Part shown: positions 40,506 through 45,543 of the stretch, piece by piece | Layout: the number at the start of each line of letters is the position of its first letter | Position numbering within the stretch: position 1 is the first letter of the stretch | NCBI GenBank assembly: GCA_023954745.1 | Contig: JAGSHC010000018.1 | Span: 1 to 48,986, forward strand | Length of the DNA: 48,986 bases | Direction of reading: 5' to 3' | Origin: Deltaproteobacteria bacterium | GTDB lineage: Bacteria > Myxococcota_A > UBA796 > UBA9615 | Position numbers and translations under genes: made by a program | The notes under the pieces: generated by a model | What the model saw: only the letters and a program-made list of their open reading frames with translations | What the model was told of the DNA's origin: nothing | The model's database searches: none

Positions 40506-40530
40506 GCTCGCTTGGTGGGGCCCTGTGGTC

Positions 40531-40559
40531 TTGCCGGGCGACAACCCGAGCATTAGTGT
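40531..40559 (+). promoter_or_regulatory. Weak candidate promoter for the TlpA-like gene
   Basis: TTGCCG and TAGTGT are 17 nt apart and end 46 nt upstream of the ATG at 40606. Each matches consensus at only three of six positions. Confidence 0.25.
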
Positions 40560-40605
40560 GCGCCGGGCCGGGCGTACCGCCGCGGCAGACTTCGGAGCAT
40601 CCAAG

Positions 40606-42018
40606 ATGAGCGATTCCTCGACCTCTTCGGCCCTTGGCCCCACCGGCATCGCCTTCGGGCTCGGCATGGCCATGGTGGGACTGATCTTCGGCTACATGAT
40701 CGGCACCTCCCGGAGCTCCGGCCCCTCGGACGCCGACCTCTCTGCGCAGATCGACAAGGCCGTGGAAGCGCGCATGTCCGGCCAGGACAAGGCCCGGGTC
40801 GTGAACAACTCCGGCGGCGAGCTCCGCAAGCTGTCCGACGCCGAGAAGAAGGAGCTGCTGAACAAGAAGAAGGCCCGCTCCGAGCCCGCAGCCCCCGCCG
40901 CTCCCTTGGACTCGCCGTTCCTGAGCGGCGACATCAAGGGCAGCTTCGGCGACAACTCTGCGGCGCTGGAGCAGTATTCCCAGGCCGTGGCTCTCATGGC
41001 CCAGGGGAACGCCCGCAAGGCCCGCCCCACGCTCACGGCGCTCCACAGCCAGTCCGATGGGAAGGCTTGGCGCGAGCAAGTGGGCGTATTGCTCGCCGAC
41101 GCCCGTGTCTCCGTGGGAGAGGTGGCTGAGGGCCGCACGATGCTCACCGAGTGGCGCGACGCCTACCCCATGAGCAAGCACATGGCCCTGGCGACCATCG
41201 CCGAGGGCAAGGCCGTGATGAAGGACGCCAAGCGCATCGCGGACTCGCCAGACGGTGGCCTCCCCCCCGCCAAGAAGAGCTCCTACAACGACGCCATCAC
41301 CCTGTTCGACAAGGCCATCACCGGCTGGCCCGAGGACCCGTCGCTCGAGCAGGCGTACCTCAACAAGGCCGCGCTGCTGGGGGAGATGGGCCAGATGGAC
41401 GAAGCCGAAGCAGCTGCCTCGGAGCTGGCCGGCAAGTTCCCCGGAGCGAAGCAGGCGCCGCGCGCCCTGTTCAACGTCGCCCGGGCCGCCTTCGACGACG
41501 AGGACTACCCCCGGGCCGAGCGCATCTACACCAAGCTCGTCGAGGCCTTCCCGAAGGACCGCCTGAGCAAGAGCGCCCGCAGCAACCTGTCCTCCCTGAA
41601 GCTGCTGGGCAAGCCTGCCCCGGAGCTCGACATCACCGAGTGGGTCGGCGACGACCTCGGCACGATGGCGAGCATGAAGGGCAAGCCCACGCTCCTCCTC
41701 TTCTGGGCCACCTGGTGCCCCCACTGCCGCAAGGCGATGCCCGGCATTGAAGAGAATGTCTGGCAGAAGTACCGGGACCAGGGGCTCAACGTGGTCGCCG
41801 TCACCAAGAACAGCCGGGGCCAGACCACCGACAAGGTGCGGGACTACATGACGGAGAACGGGTACACGATGCCCGTCGCCATCGACCCGGGCACCACGTC
41901 GCGCAACTACGGCGTGAGCGGAATTCCTGCGGCGGCCCTGGTGGACAAGGACGGCAACGTGGTCTTCCGCAACCACCCCTCGCAAGTCAACGACGCCCTC
42001 ATCCAGAAGCACCTGTAG
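40606..42018 (+). CDS. Membrane-anchored TPR-thioredoxin (TlpA-like) protein
   Basis: The 470-residue protein starts at the ATG at 40606 (GGAG upstream), has a single membrane helix (GIAFGLGMAMVGLIFGYMI), a Lys/Ala-rich linker and a TPR region (AYLNKAALLGEMGQ, ALFNVARAAFDDEDYPRAERIY). It ends in a TlpA/ResA-type thioredoxin domain. The redox motif is WATWCPHC with Cys371 and Cys374, followed by VVAVTKNS and the cis-Pro segment VSGIPAAALVD. It likely acts in the periplasm as a thiol-disulfide reductant, perhaps for cytochrome maturation or envelope proteins; the partner is not evident. It is divergent from the ALG5-like GT2. Confidence 0.85.
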   Translation: MSDSSTSSALGPTGIAFGLGMAMVGLIFGYMIGTSRSSGPSDADLSAQIDKAVEARMSGQDKARVVNNSGGELRKLSDAEKKELLNKKKARSEPAAPAAPLDSPFLSGDIKGSFGDNSAALEQYSQAVALMAQGNARKARPTLTALHSQSDGKAWREQVGVLLADARVSVGEVAEGRTMLTEWRDAYPMSKHMALATIAEGKAVMKDAKRIADSPDGGLPPAKKSSYNDAITLFDKAITGWPEDPSLEQAYLNKAALLGEMGQMDEAEAAASELAGKFPGAKQAPRALFNVARAAFDDEDYPRAERIYTKLVEAFPKDRLSKSARSNLSSLKLLGKPAPELDITEWVGDDLGTMASMKGKPTLLLFWATWCPHCRKAMPGIEENVWQKYRDQGLNVVAVTKNSRGQTTDKVRDYMTENGYTMPVAIDPGTTSRNYGVSGIPAAALVDKDGNVVFRNHPSQVNDALIQKHL

Positions 42019-42116: not shown

Positions 42117-44342
42117 TCATCCCAAGAGGAAGTCAATTGTGAGCTCGAGGCTCTGCGTGTCCTGTCCCCAGATCTCCAAGTCCCGGTGGAAGAGCAACGT
42201 CTGACCCTGGACCCTCTCCTGCCACCCCTCGTCCGTCTCGAAGACTGAGGTGACCGGAGTCCACCACACGCGCATGGGTTCAGGAGTCTCGAAGACGATG
42301 GCCAGCTCGGTCTCGGTGTCCTTGATCTCGAGCCACGTGACCGTGCCGAGGTCCTGGGCCCCATCGATGAGCTGGTAGGTGCGCTCGTCATTGTCTTCGA
42401 ACGCCGTCGCCCAGAGGTTCAGGTCCTCTCCCGACGGGAGCCCGAACGTCCACTCCAGCCCATGCCAGAGGGAGGCGGTGTCGCGCGAGCGGTTGGCGAT
42501 GCTGTGCTCGAGGACCATGCGCGCCCGATGGGGGTCGAACCGATACTCCTTGGTGATGCGGAGCAGCATGGTCTTGTCGACATCCTTGGCGACGCCGCTG
42601 CGAATGACCTGCACGACGCCGAAGGGGCTGTCCGGGAGCTCGGGGGCCGAAATGCGGGCCAGCTCGAAGCGCCCCTTCGCGAAGTCGCCGAGCTCGCGGA
42701 ACTGGCGGTGAGCGTACGTCTCCAAGGTGGTCTCGGGGCCCAGGATGTGGTCCTGGAACGCTCCTCGGGGCACGCGGTCCACCCGGCGCCGCGCGAGCTC
42801 GCGATTGCGGCTCGGCAAGGGAACACCAGGATTGGTCTTGGGGACCGCGCGGATGCGCTCGCGGGACAGCTCCTGGCCTTCGACGAGGACCACCTCGTTG
42901 CCGACCAGTTCGTCGTCGTAGGGCTCCTCCACGGGCGAGAGGGCCGTGAGGAGCGGAATGCCCTTCCGGCGGAGGTCGAGCTCCCAGAGCGAGCCTCCGT
43001 CCGCCGCGTGCACCACCGCGGAGAGGTGCTGGGTCATCACGATGGCCTCGTTGTTGCCGTCGGAGTCGTAGTCGCGCGCGCCCCCCCAGAACCCGTGCTT
43101 CGCCGGGTCGCCCAAGGCCTTCTCCACCATGCGCTGGGCTTGCATCAGCTGGCGCGTGGTGGCGATGCGCAGAGCGGGGTCGTAGATGCCGGCGTGGCCC
43201 TTGCCGCGGTGCCAGAAGACCGCGTGTGACTGGGCCCGCCAGAGGGCATCACAGGCCCGTTCGAGCACCTTGCGCGCGTGCGAGTCCGTCTTGCTGACCC
43301 GCTTCGCGATCTGCCGATCGCTGAGGATATTGCGCAGCCGATCGATGGAGTTCGACACCGACAGCATGCGTTTGTGCAGCCGGTTTGCCTCGCTGTACTT
43401 GATGAGGAAGTTGTCGAAGATGACGCGGTCCACGTGGTACTGGACCATGCTCCACACGTGGGCTTGGTCGAGGCGAAACTGCAGGTAGCGCCTGCGTTCT
43501 CGCGCCTCGGCCGTGCACGCCCACTCGGCGAGACCGGGGTCCGCCCCGGTCAGCAAGCTCACCGGGCCCCGGGTGGGGAAGGTCTCGAACGCCCGCTGCA
43601 GGGTGATGGTCTTGAGCCAGTGCCTGTTCTCGGAGAACAGAGGCCCCAGCTCGGCGAACCGGCCGCTCTGCACGAGCTCGTCCCCGTCGAAGGCGAGCAC
43701 CGCGATCCGGTCCCCTTCCCCCTGGTGGGCCTCGTTCGCCCGCTCGAGAATCTCTCGCGCTCGGGTGTTGCCGGCGTGGGCCACGGTCTTCGTGAGTCGA
43801 CGGTCGATGGGAAACACCGACACCGAGTTCCCGGCGCGGTGGTTGACGAAGTGGCCGTGCACGAGCCCCGGCTGGAGCCCGGCCCCAAAGAAGAGTGCGT
43901 CGTCGGCAAGTGTGTAGCGAACACCGGCCTGGGACAGCACACCAGGCAGAGTCGGGTCCCACGCCCGCAGGGCGAGCCAGGCTCCCGTCGGCAAGGCGTT
44001 CAGGTTGCGCTTGAGCCAGTTTCCGGTGAAGCGAAGCTGCCCCACGGCGTCCCGCTCGGGGACGGATCCGAGCACCGGGCTGAAGAACGCGCCGCCCAGG
44101 AGCTCGAGGCGGCCCTGCTGGGAGAGAGCGGAGATGCGGCCGAGGAGCTTCGGCCGGTGGGCGATGGCGTGCTCGAGGAGTCGGCCCGAAATGTGGACGA
44201 CCAACGACAGCCGGTCGTCGTTCTCCAACGAGCGGATGAGTGGCTCCACCGCGTTCTCGAACCTTCGATCCATGGACACCGCGCTCGCGGTGTACGGCTG
44301 GTCGAAGCAGAAGACGCAGGCGAGATGAAGACTCGACCGCAC
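42117..44342 (-). CDS. GH57-family (4-alpha-glucanotransferase-like) protein with degenerate active site
   Basis: The 741-residue protein follows GH57 4-alpha-glucanotransferases/alpha-amylases with DUF1925/DUF1926 C-terminal domains: LSLVVHISGRLLEHAI, GRLELLGGAFFSPVLGSVPERD, GVRYTLADDALFF and LTAPE-like beta-sandwich regions toward the end. The catalytic elements are altered. The HxHQP motif reads CFDQP (12-16). The WLTERV-type nucleophile motif reads WLALRA (122-127), so Leu125 replaces the Glu. The acid/base region FDGDE keeps Asp219. It may therefore be a non-catalytic glucan-binding or regulatory homologue. The GTG start has GGGAG 6 nt upstream. It is divergent from the SbcD-like gene. 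Confidence 0.75.
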   Translation of the reverse strand: MRSSLHLACVFCFDQPYTASAVSMDRRFENAVEPLIRSLENDDRLSLVVHISGRLLEHAIAHRPKLLGRISALSQQGRLELLGGAFFSPVLGSVPERDAVGQLRFTGNWLKRNLNALPTGAWLALRAWDPTLPGVLSQAGVRYTLADDALFFGAGLQPGLVHGHFVNHRAGNSVSVFPIDRRLTKTVAHAGNTRAREILERANEAHQGEGDRIAVLAFDGDELVQSGRFAELGPLFSENRHWLKTITLQRAFETFPTRGPVSLLTGADPGLAEWACTAEARERRRYLQFRLDQAHVWSMVQYHVDRVIFDNFLIKYSEANRLHKRMLSVSNSIDRLRNILSDRQIAKRVSKTDSHARKVLERACDALWRAQSHAVFWHRGKGHAGIYDPALRIATTRQLMQAQRMVEKALGDPAKHGFWGGARDYDSDGNNEAIVMTQHLSAVVHAADGGSLWELDLRRKGIPLLTALSPVEEPYDDELVGNEVVLVEGQELSRERIRAVPKTNPGVPLPSRNRELARRRVDRVPRGAFQDHILGPETTLETYAHRQFRELGDFAKGRFELARISAPELPDSPFGVVQVIRSGVAKDVDKTMLLRITKEYRFDPHRARMVLEHSIANRSRDTASLWHGLEWTFGLPSGEDLNLWATAFEDNDERTYQLIDGAQDLGTVTWLEIKDTETELAIVFETPEPMRVWWTPVTSVFETDEGWQERVQGQTLLFHRDLEIWGQDTQSLELTIDFLLG

Positions 44343-44448
44343 GATGCTCCCAGGGCCCCCTCGTAGAGAGGCCTGTGTAGCCCCCTGGCGAGTCTATCCG
44401 ATGGAGGCGCGGGAGTCAGATGGGACCAAGCGGCGTGGCGGCCCACGG

Positions 44449-44499: not shown

Positions 44500-45543
44500 A
44501 TGCGCCCCCTACGACTTCTCCTGCTCGCGGACACCCACATCGGCTTCGACTGCGCCGCTCGCCCCCGGGTGAAGCGGCGCCGACGAGGCCCTGACTTCCT
44601 CGCAAATCTCACCGAGGCCCTGGAGCCAGCGCTCCGGGGCGAGGTCGACGTCGTGGTGCACGGGGGGGACTACTTTCATCGACCGGGGGTGCCGGACGCA
44701 GTGGTCCGGGACGGCTATCGCCCCCTCCTCGAGGTCGCCGAATGCGGAGTCCCCGTCTTCATCGTCCCAGGGAACCACGAGCGAAGCCGCATGCCGCTCC
44801 CGCTCCTGCTCGTGCACCCCAACATCCGGGTGTTCGATCGGCCTCGCGCCTTCTCGGTCCGCGCCGGAGGGCATCGCCTCCAGATGGTTGGCTTCCCCAA
44901 CATCCGCAACGTCGCAGAAAAGGGCCTCGCCCGGGTCTTCGCCGGGGTACCTCTCGACGAGGGGGCGGACGTCCGGCTCCTCTGCATGCACCAGGCCTTC
45001 GCCGGGGCCCAGGTGGGGGCGCAGGACTACACGTTTCGGTTCGGGGCGGACGTGGTCGCGGCGGAGGACTTGCCGACGGGCTTCGCCGCAGTGCTCTCAG
45101 GCCACATCCATCGCGCCCAGGTGCTCGAGGAGAGCCTCGATGGGTCACCGTTGCGTTGCCCGGTCATCTATCCGGGCTCCGTGGAGCGCACGTCGTACGC
45201 AGAGCGGGAGGAAGCAAAGGGGTACGCCCGGCTTCAGTTCGCCGCAGACGGGAACGGCGGCCGGCTCCTCGACGCGGAGTTCGTGCCCCTCCCCGCTCGG
45301 CCGATGCTGGCTCTCCCTCTGCACGTGCGAGGGCTCACCGCTGCGAGCGTCGAAGCGGTACTGAGGGACCGGATCGCCGAGCTGCCCCAAGACGCCATCG
45401 TGCGGGTGCAGGTTCTCGGCTCCCCGGAGGCGGACATCGCGCGCGCGCTCACTGCGGCTCGACTCCGCAAGCTGGCTCCTCCGACCATGAACATCGACAT
45501 GCCGCGCGGTCGCACGATGGTGGGGAGGCACCGCATCGACTGA
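44500..45543 (+). CDS. SbcD/Mre11-like metallophosphoesterase (DNA repair exonuclease family)
   Basis: The 347-residue protein has the Mre11/SbcD motif order: LLADTHIGFD (Asp11, His13), VVVHGGDYFHRP, VFIVPGNHERSR, LLCMHQAF, VLSGHIHRAQV and IYPGSVERTSYAE, the last typical of the SbcD group. It probably acts as a Mn-dependent nuclease, but no SbcC/Rad50-type ATPase is present in the window, so this could be a stand-alone YhaO-type member. The ribosome site is weak (GAGG at 9 nt). A sugar nucleotidyltransferase gene follows 73 nt downstream. Confidence 0.85.
   Translation: MRPLRLLLLADTHIGFDCAARPRVKRRRRGPDFLANLTEALEPALRGEVDVVVHGGDYFHRPGVPDAVVRDGYRPLLEVAECGVPVFIVPGNHERSRMPLPLLLVHPNIRVFDRPRAFSVRAGGHRLQMVGFPNIRNVAEKGLARVFAGVPLDEGADVRLLCMHQAFAGAQVGAQDYTFRFGADVVAAEDLPTGFAAVLSGHIHRAQVLEESLDGSPLRCPVIYPGSVERTSYAEREEAKGYARLQFAADGNGGRLLDAEFVPLPARPMLALPLHVRGLTAASVEAVLRDRIAELPQDAIVRVQVLGSPEADIARALTAARLRKLAPPTMNIDMPRGRTMVGRHRID

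Follow-up and report, generated by a model that had tools for sequence, protein, structure and literature searches.

The gene and its domains

The window, as we call the whole stretch of 48,986 nucleotides that was analysed, carries on its reverse strand an intact open reading frame of 741 amino acids with a GTG start, and its nearest relative (genome G001) starts at an equivalent position. Three Pfam matches follow one another in the order of the GH57 4-alpha-glucanotransferases (4AGTs), with E-values of 7e-19 for the GH57 domain, 6e-12 for the middle domain and 8e-27 for the C-terminal domain. The closest solved relative is TLGT of T. litoralis (E=5e-42), which is also the sole solved structure with a strong sequence match. 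The gene, its parts and its two neighbours lie as follows:

42117..44342, reverse strand: CDS, GH57 4-alpha-glucanotransferase-like protein with a lost active site, 741 amino acids, GTG start
43569..44258, reverse strand: GH57 (beta/alpha)7-barrel domain, PF03065 match, residues 29-258
43128..43421, reverse strand: middle helical domain, PF09094 match, residues 308-405
43362-43379, reverse strand: LHKRML helix, inside the middle domain
43209-43214, reverse strand: W377/H378, the Trp/His of conserved region 5, inside the middle domain
42180..43073, reverse strand: C-terminal beta-sandwich domain, PF09095 match, residues 424-721, containing N617/R618
40525..42018, forward strand: convergent neighbour, protein with TPR and a TlpA/ResA-like thioredoxin part
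44500..45543, forward strand: divergent neighbour, SbcD/Mre11-like metallophosphoesterase

An AlphaFold model built with 47 sequences reached a mean pLDDT of 91.7 and a pTM of 0.91, and a Foldseek search with this model ranked TLGT first, with a TM score of 0.90 normalised to TLGT. As modelled, the window protein is a complete 4AGT homologue predicted to fold like the enzyme, with the three-domain architecture (PF03065, PF09094 and PF09095) and the TLGT fold of the active 4AGTs; the earlier proposal that the whole fold persists over 741 residues is borne out by these matches. Both neighbours are probably outside the system in functional terms. The TPR/TlpA gene also adjoins the homologue in G001, G002 and G004, and no SbcC-like gene was found among the examined neighbours of the metallophosphoesterase. 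A 362-residue open frame runs antisense to the gene (43278-44366, forward strand); such shadow frames are common in this high-GC window and nothing supports its status as a gene.

Loss of the active site

Residues were mapped in a multiple alignment that included 32 intact proteins, TLGT among them, and the position of Asp214 was read from this alignment and not from phmmer. Four motifs of the window protein correspond to the conserved regions of the active enzymes:

44295..44309, reverse strand: CFDQP, residues 12-16, at conserved region 1 (HxHQP in active enzymes), with H11 replaced by C12 and H13 by D14
44076..44087, reverse strand: FFSP, residues 86-89, at FYEP, with E87 replaced by S88
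43962..43979, reverse strand: WLALRA, residues 122-127, at WLTERV, with the nucleophile E123 replaced by L125
43674..43694, reverse strand: AFDGDEL, residues 217-223, at HDDGEKF, with D219 aligned to the acid D214

Active 4AGTs carry the nucleophilic Glu on strand beta4 (WLTERV), together with the HxHQP motif and the Glu of FYEP. The sequence-only reading had placed Leu125 of WLALRA, CFDQP and the Ser of FFSP at these three sites, and all three assignments hold. In particular, WLALRA aligns with WLTERV without a gap and the flanking W, L, R and W are identical to those of TLGT, and no alternative Glu for the nucleophile site was found at the level of sequence. Leu is present in all five close relatives that could be read, i.e. 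the nearest one (58% identity), two further genera of the window's family and the sister family, and because it is shared so widely it is neither chance nor a sequencing artefact.

On the acid/base side, D219 aligns with Asp214 of TLGT, which active enzymes carry on strand beta7, the surrounding DDGEKFG reads FDGDEL, and the nearest relative has Gln at this site; Asp213 of TLGT is F218 in the window protein. Moreover, the acceptor-side loop that carries Trp221 in TLGT is deleted. By our own alignment this is the same Trp as W219 of the Pyrococcus enzyme, which a mutational study found essential to acceptor binding (PMC9582752). The Glu of the GQLE motif is retained (E79 in TLGT, E80 in the window protein). 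The substitutions predict a protein without catalytic activity, and the D219 and E80 that remain may leave it weak or altered activity.

Spread and age of the loss across the class

Relatives in contigs were recovered with an alignment as query (a single-protein query gave no confirmed relative), and conservation of LHKRM among L032-L111 was left out as evidence since this motif was the search pattern. Homologues were present in 43 of the 58 genomes searched, and PF09095 occurs in 50/71 genomes of the window's Myxococcota class versus 14/227 of the genomes sampled from the rest of the phylum (Fisher p=3e-27). The gene is single-copy in the class genomes that carry it. A dead paralogue kept beside a live 4AGT was considered and rejected, as no genome listed has a second 4AGT-type gene and the homologue is the one GH57 gene of the window's genome. 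Two records titled Klebsiella pneumoniae, L052 and L056 (MaH-04nov19-8 and ME-21oct19-254), match the Myxococcota-class genomes G039 and G032 by sequence, and their names look wrong.

None of the 44 class members readable at both sites keeps Glu123 together with Asp214, versus 32/32 of the intact comparators. The residue that stands at the Glu123 position differs from family to family. It is Leu in the window's family, in f2 (the sister family) and in f4, and every member of the order that could be read has Leu; f7 has Tyr, Phe, Cys or His at this position, f3 has Trp, His or Tyr, f5 has Gly, Ala or Val, and f9 has Gln. Family f8 (G019, G021, G038 and G058) keeps Glu123 and has Ser in place of the acid Asp214, so that the order of loss is reversed within the class. 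A maximum-likelihood tree from which the motif columns were left out places the class members in one clade (SH-aLRT 94), with intact enzymes around it. By this distribution the loss is ancient and class-wide, and the simplest history suggested by the sequences is that function was lost once, early on, after which the pocket drifted freely. The tree neighbour of the class is a partly eroded Myxococcota lineage, P13 (G114, G145, G184 and G266; L202-L205), which keeps Glu123, and Asp214 in three of its four members, with DDGEKFG eroded to GDVERL and similar; it is a possible intermediate stage of inactivation.

Genomic context across the class

A GH57 branching-enzyme gene lies directly downstream of the homologue, often overlapping it or 4 bases apart, in f5, f7, f8, f9 and part of f3, an arrangement that links the gene to an active glucan enzyme there and not in the window's own family. 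A larger GH57 gene is found upstream in f5, f8, f9 and part of f7, and GlgA is encoded nearby in several loci. The downstream branching enzymes keep HGHLP, WLPEC and DAELFGH intact in 29/29 cases, and HMHQP is kept in the 12 upstream GH57 proteins that could be read (12/12). To judge from these motifs, it is the middle gene alone that has died within the operon. The same gene order is found with an intact 4AGT in two genomes from another lineage of the phylum (G073 and G078), which implies that the operon is older than the inactivation. Outside the window's family, 39 genomes have both the homologue and a GH57 branching enzyme, 5 and 7 have only one of them and 14 have neither (p=1e-5, which is not a strict probability since the genomes are related). 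A GH77 amylomaltase (MalQ) is present in 65 of the 71 class genomes, which may plausibly have allowed 4AGT activity to be dispensed with.

Other genes recur at these loci. An uncharacterised protein, usually of about 265 amino acids, is encoded after the branching enzyme in many f7 and f3 genomes (cluster 2; L210:5156-5962 and 14 further loci), without a Pfam match in the one scanned. A WD40-like beta-propeller of about 610 amino acids lies upstream on the opposite strand in f3, f5, f6, f8 and f9 (cluster 4; L184:10789-12615 and 10 further loci). In the draft genome G063, a single TAG codon lies in frame close to the end of the GH57 branching-enzyme gene (C734:3370-3687).

Selection and conservation

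Close pairs of family f7 gave dN/dS values of 0.04-0.14 for the homologue, while the adjacent active branching enzyme gave 0.06-0.22 in those pairs; purifying selection is thus as strong on the homologue as on its neighbour. The barrel was no looser than the C-terminal domain. Divergent pairs were dropped because dS saturates in these high-GC genomes. Within the window's family the usable pairs give a dN/dS of at most about 0.36-0.39, with dS near-saturated, which indicates a constraint that is real but looser. The gene had been supposed to be under constraint from the persistence of its fold and domains; the close-pair ratios agree, and retention over the class extends the point far beyond the window. 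Altogether, catalytic residues were lost over the whole lineage under continued selection, the combination expected of a non-catalytic subunit like ISA2 of plants.

Mean pairwise identity within the class is 0.34 for the barrel and 0.33 for the C-terminal domain, as against 0.42 and 0.25 in the intact enzymes; by this measure the extra conservation of the barrel is lost over the whole class. At the same time, N617 and R618 of the C-terminal domain are kept in 100% and 96% of the class versus 42% and 30% outside.

The window's own family

The 42117-44342 homologue is the only GH57 gene of the window's genome, where no GH57 branching enzyme was found; this genome has glgC-glgA, GlgX proteins, an alpha-glucan phosphorylase and malQ. 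Across the six genomes of the family (G000-G005; L212, L213 and L215) there is a glgA-type synthase (clear in most), GlgX-like proteins and malQ, again with no GH57 branching enzyme, and G000 additionally has glgC and a phosphorylase. The GlgB model TIGR01515 had no match at its cut-off in the six, and the polymer of this family is either little branched or branched by another protein.

Along the cleft, W274, Y316, W377, H378, Y387 and R392 are invariant in 6/6 homologues of the family, and W122 in 4/4 of those that extend over its position, whereas the E123, H11 and H13 positions are not conserved, the catalytic carboxylates and histidines being gone. Chemistry lost with the aromatic platform kept is the pattern that would be expected of a glucan-binding pseudoenzyme, as read from a small sample of related sequences. 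Families f5, f7 and f9 have lost most of the cleft aromatics too, and glucan binding in the cleft therefore cannot be general.

A proposed role and its alternatives

The reading that we favour, with about as much confidence as doubt, is a non-catalytic subunit of glycogen metabolism that would bind alpha-glucan or tune a partner, both the binding and the partner being putative. The protein would be a pseudoenzyme descended from a GH57 4-alpha-glucanotransferase, whose retaining active site was presumably lost at or near the origin of the Myxococcota class, in genomes also holding a GH77 MalQ able to supply the reaction, if this is the order in which the events took place. It would then have been kept as a non-catalytic subunit, binding alpha-glucan chains through the remaining cleft and/or the C-terminal beta-sandwich and holding or tuning an active enzyme. 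For most of the class, the simplest candidate for this partner is the product of the next gene downstream, the GH57 branching enzyme; where that enzyme is gone, as in the window's family, the protein may act on the remaining glucan machinery (GlgA, GlgX and phosphorylase). Of the roles proposed from the sequence alone, a putative glycan-binding, regulatory or scaffold one fits best with the conserved glycogen operon and its intact GH57 neighbours outside the window's family. Against it, the window's family lacks the supposed partner, has a looser dN/dS and shows an eroded RxxExxH motif in the C-terminal domain (P470 and D476).

The other suggestion made at that stage, a different chemistry, is disfavoured because pocket residues vary among sub-clades. 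The protein could still be an enzyme, either a new glycosidase, epimerase or lyase working through E80 and D219/D221/E222 or one whose mutarotase-like C-terminal domain is active; this is unlikely in our view. E80 persists in 95% of the class; D424, E473, D522, R526 and K598 are retained in the C-terminal domain, where the class-specific N617/R618 have been gained; and a galactose mutarotase-like protein stands among the weaker Foldseek matches. However, the positions of E123, D214, E87 and H13 vary by sub-clade (L, Y/F, W/H, G/A, Q and E) to a degree that a shared new chemistry would not tolerate, and R470 and H476 of the C-terminal motif are missing from the window protein. Moreover, E80, E473 and D522 look structural, since intact enzymes conserve them equally.

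It is likewise improbable that the gene is slowly decaying in the window's family, as a relic of one that functions in the rest of the class but could be dispensed with here once the GH57 operon was gone. For this speak the loss of the operon partners and the relocation of the gene, the further erosion of the H11, H13 and E87 sites and of the C-terminal RxxExxH, and a dN/dS above that of f7. Nevertheless, the homologue is present in all six genomes of the family and no internal stop interrupts it (in two of the genomes it is fragmentary, lying at the end of a contig), dN/dS is clearly below 1, and the six do not vary at R392, D424 or the aromatic residues of the cleft. A non-catalytic glycan-binding or scaffold protein for another polysaccharide, such as a cell-surface glycan instead of glycogen, might be suggested by the two GT2 glycosyltransferases and the multi-spanning protein encoded within 6 kb in the window; these genes did not show up as conserved neighbours at the other loci compared and the class-wide conserved ones are glycogen genes, which makes this reading quite improbable. 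Finally, a working GH57 4-alpha-glucanotransferase with misaligned residues is hardly credible despite the matching architecture and fold and the Asp aligned with D214, given the gapless WLALRA/WLTERV alignment with its identical flanks, the Leu shared by relatives and the missing loop of Trp221.

Relation to known systems

With TLGT (PDB 1k1w/1k1x/1k1y) the window protein shares the same three-part architecture and fold and the residues E79, D97, Q101, W120, W278, W357, H358 and R370, and differs from it in having lost E123, H11, H13, E87, D213 and the acceptor loop of W221. The GH57 glycogen branching enzymes of the Thermus / Thermococcus type share the GH57 barrel, and in much of the class their gene follows that of the homologue directly; unlike the window protein, they have a BE_C domain and an intact active site, and they are absent from the window's genome.

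Bacterial 4AGT homologues lacking one or both catalytic residues were described, in the available text of Martinovicova & Janecek 2018 (PMC6037648), as GH57 "4AGT-like proteins", a group of 63 sequences reported from sequence only and with their function open. By the definition given there the window protein is of this 4AGT-like kind. The available text offers neither an operon context nor a selection analysis nor a Myxococcota clade; these are added here, and class-wide fixation, an operon with intact GH57 neighbours and selection data were not found in the searchable literature. The 2018 in silico survey thus listed inactive GH57 relatives and left the reason for their retention open; the operon context makes that question testable with one operon. 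The case is also a warning against annotating such genes as glucanotransferases.

The nearest likeness in way of working is the plant isoamylase ISA2 (GH13), which is non-catalytic, conserved since the ancestor of green plants and found in complexes with the active ISA1 (PMC12510319). In both cases an anciently inactivated glucan enzyme is kept over a whole lineage beside an active one, and ISA2 is proposed to act via glucan binding in its complex (PMC12510319). The two proteins are non-homologous and belong to different GH families and kingdoms; ISA2 binds its own paralogue, whereas the putative partner here is a GH57 branching enzyme. The likeness suggests that bacteria, like plants, may employ dead glucan enzymes as working parts. 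By this analogy the protein might even be a bacterial counterpart of ISA2, an obligate glucan-binding GH57 subunit, fixed in the class, that steers an active branching enzyme or glycogen synthase, a reading that we regard as possible, albeit doubtful; if it were true, glycogen branching in the class would depend on a pseudoenzyme.
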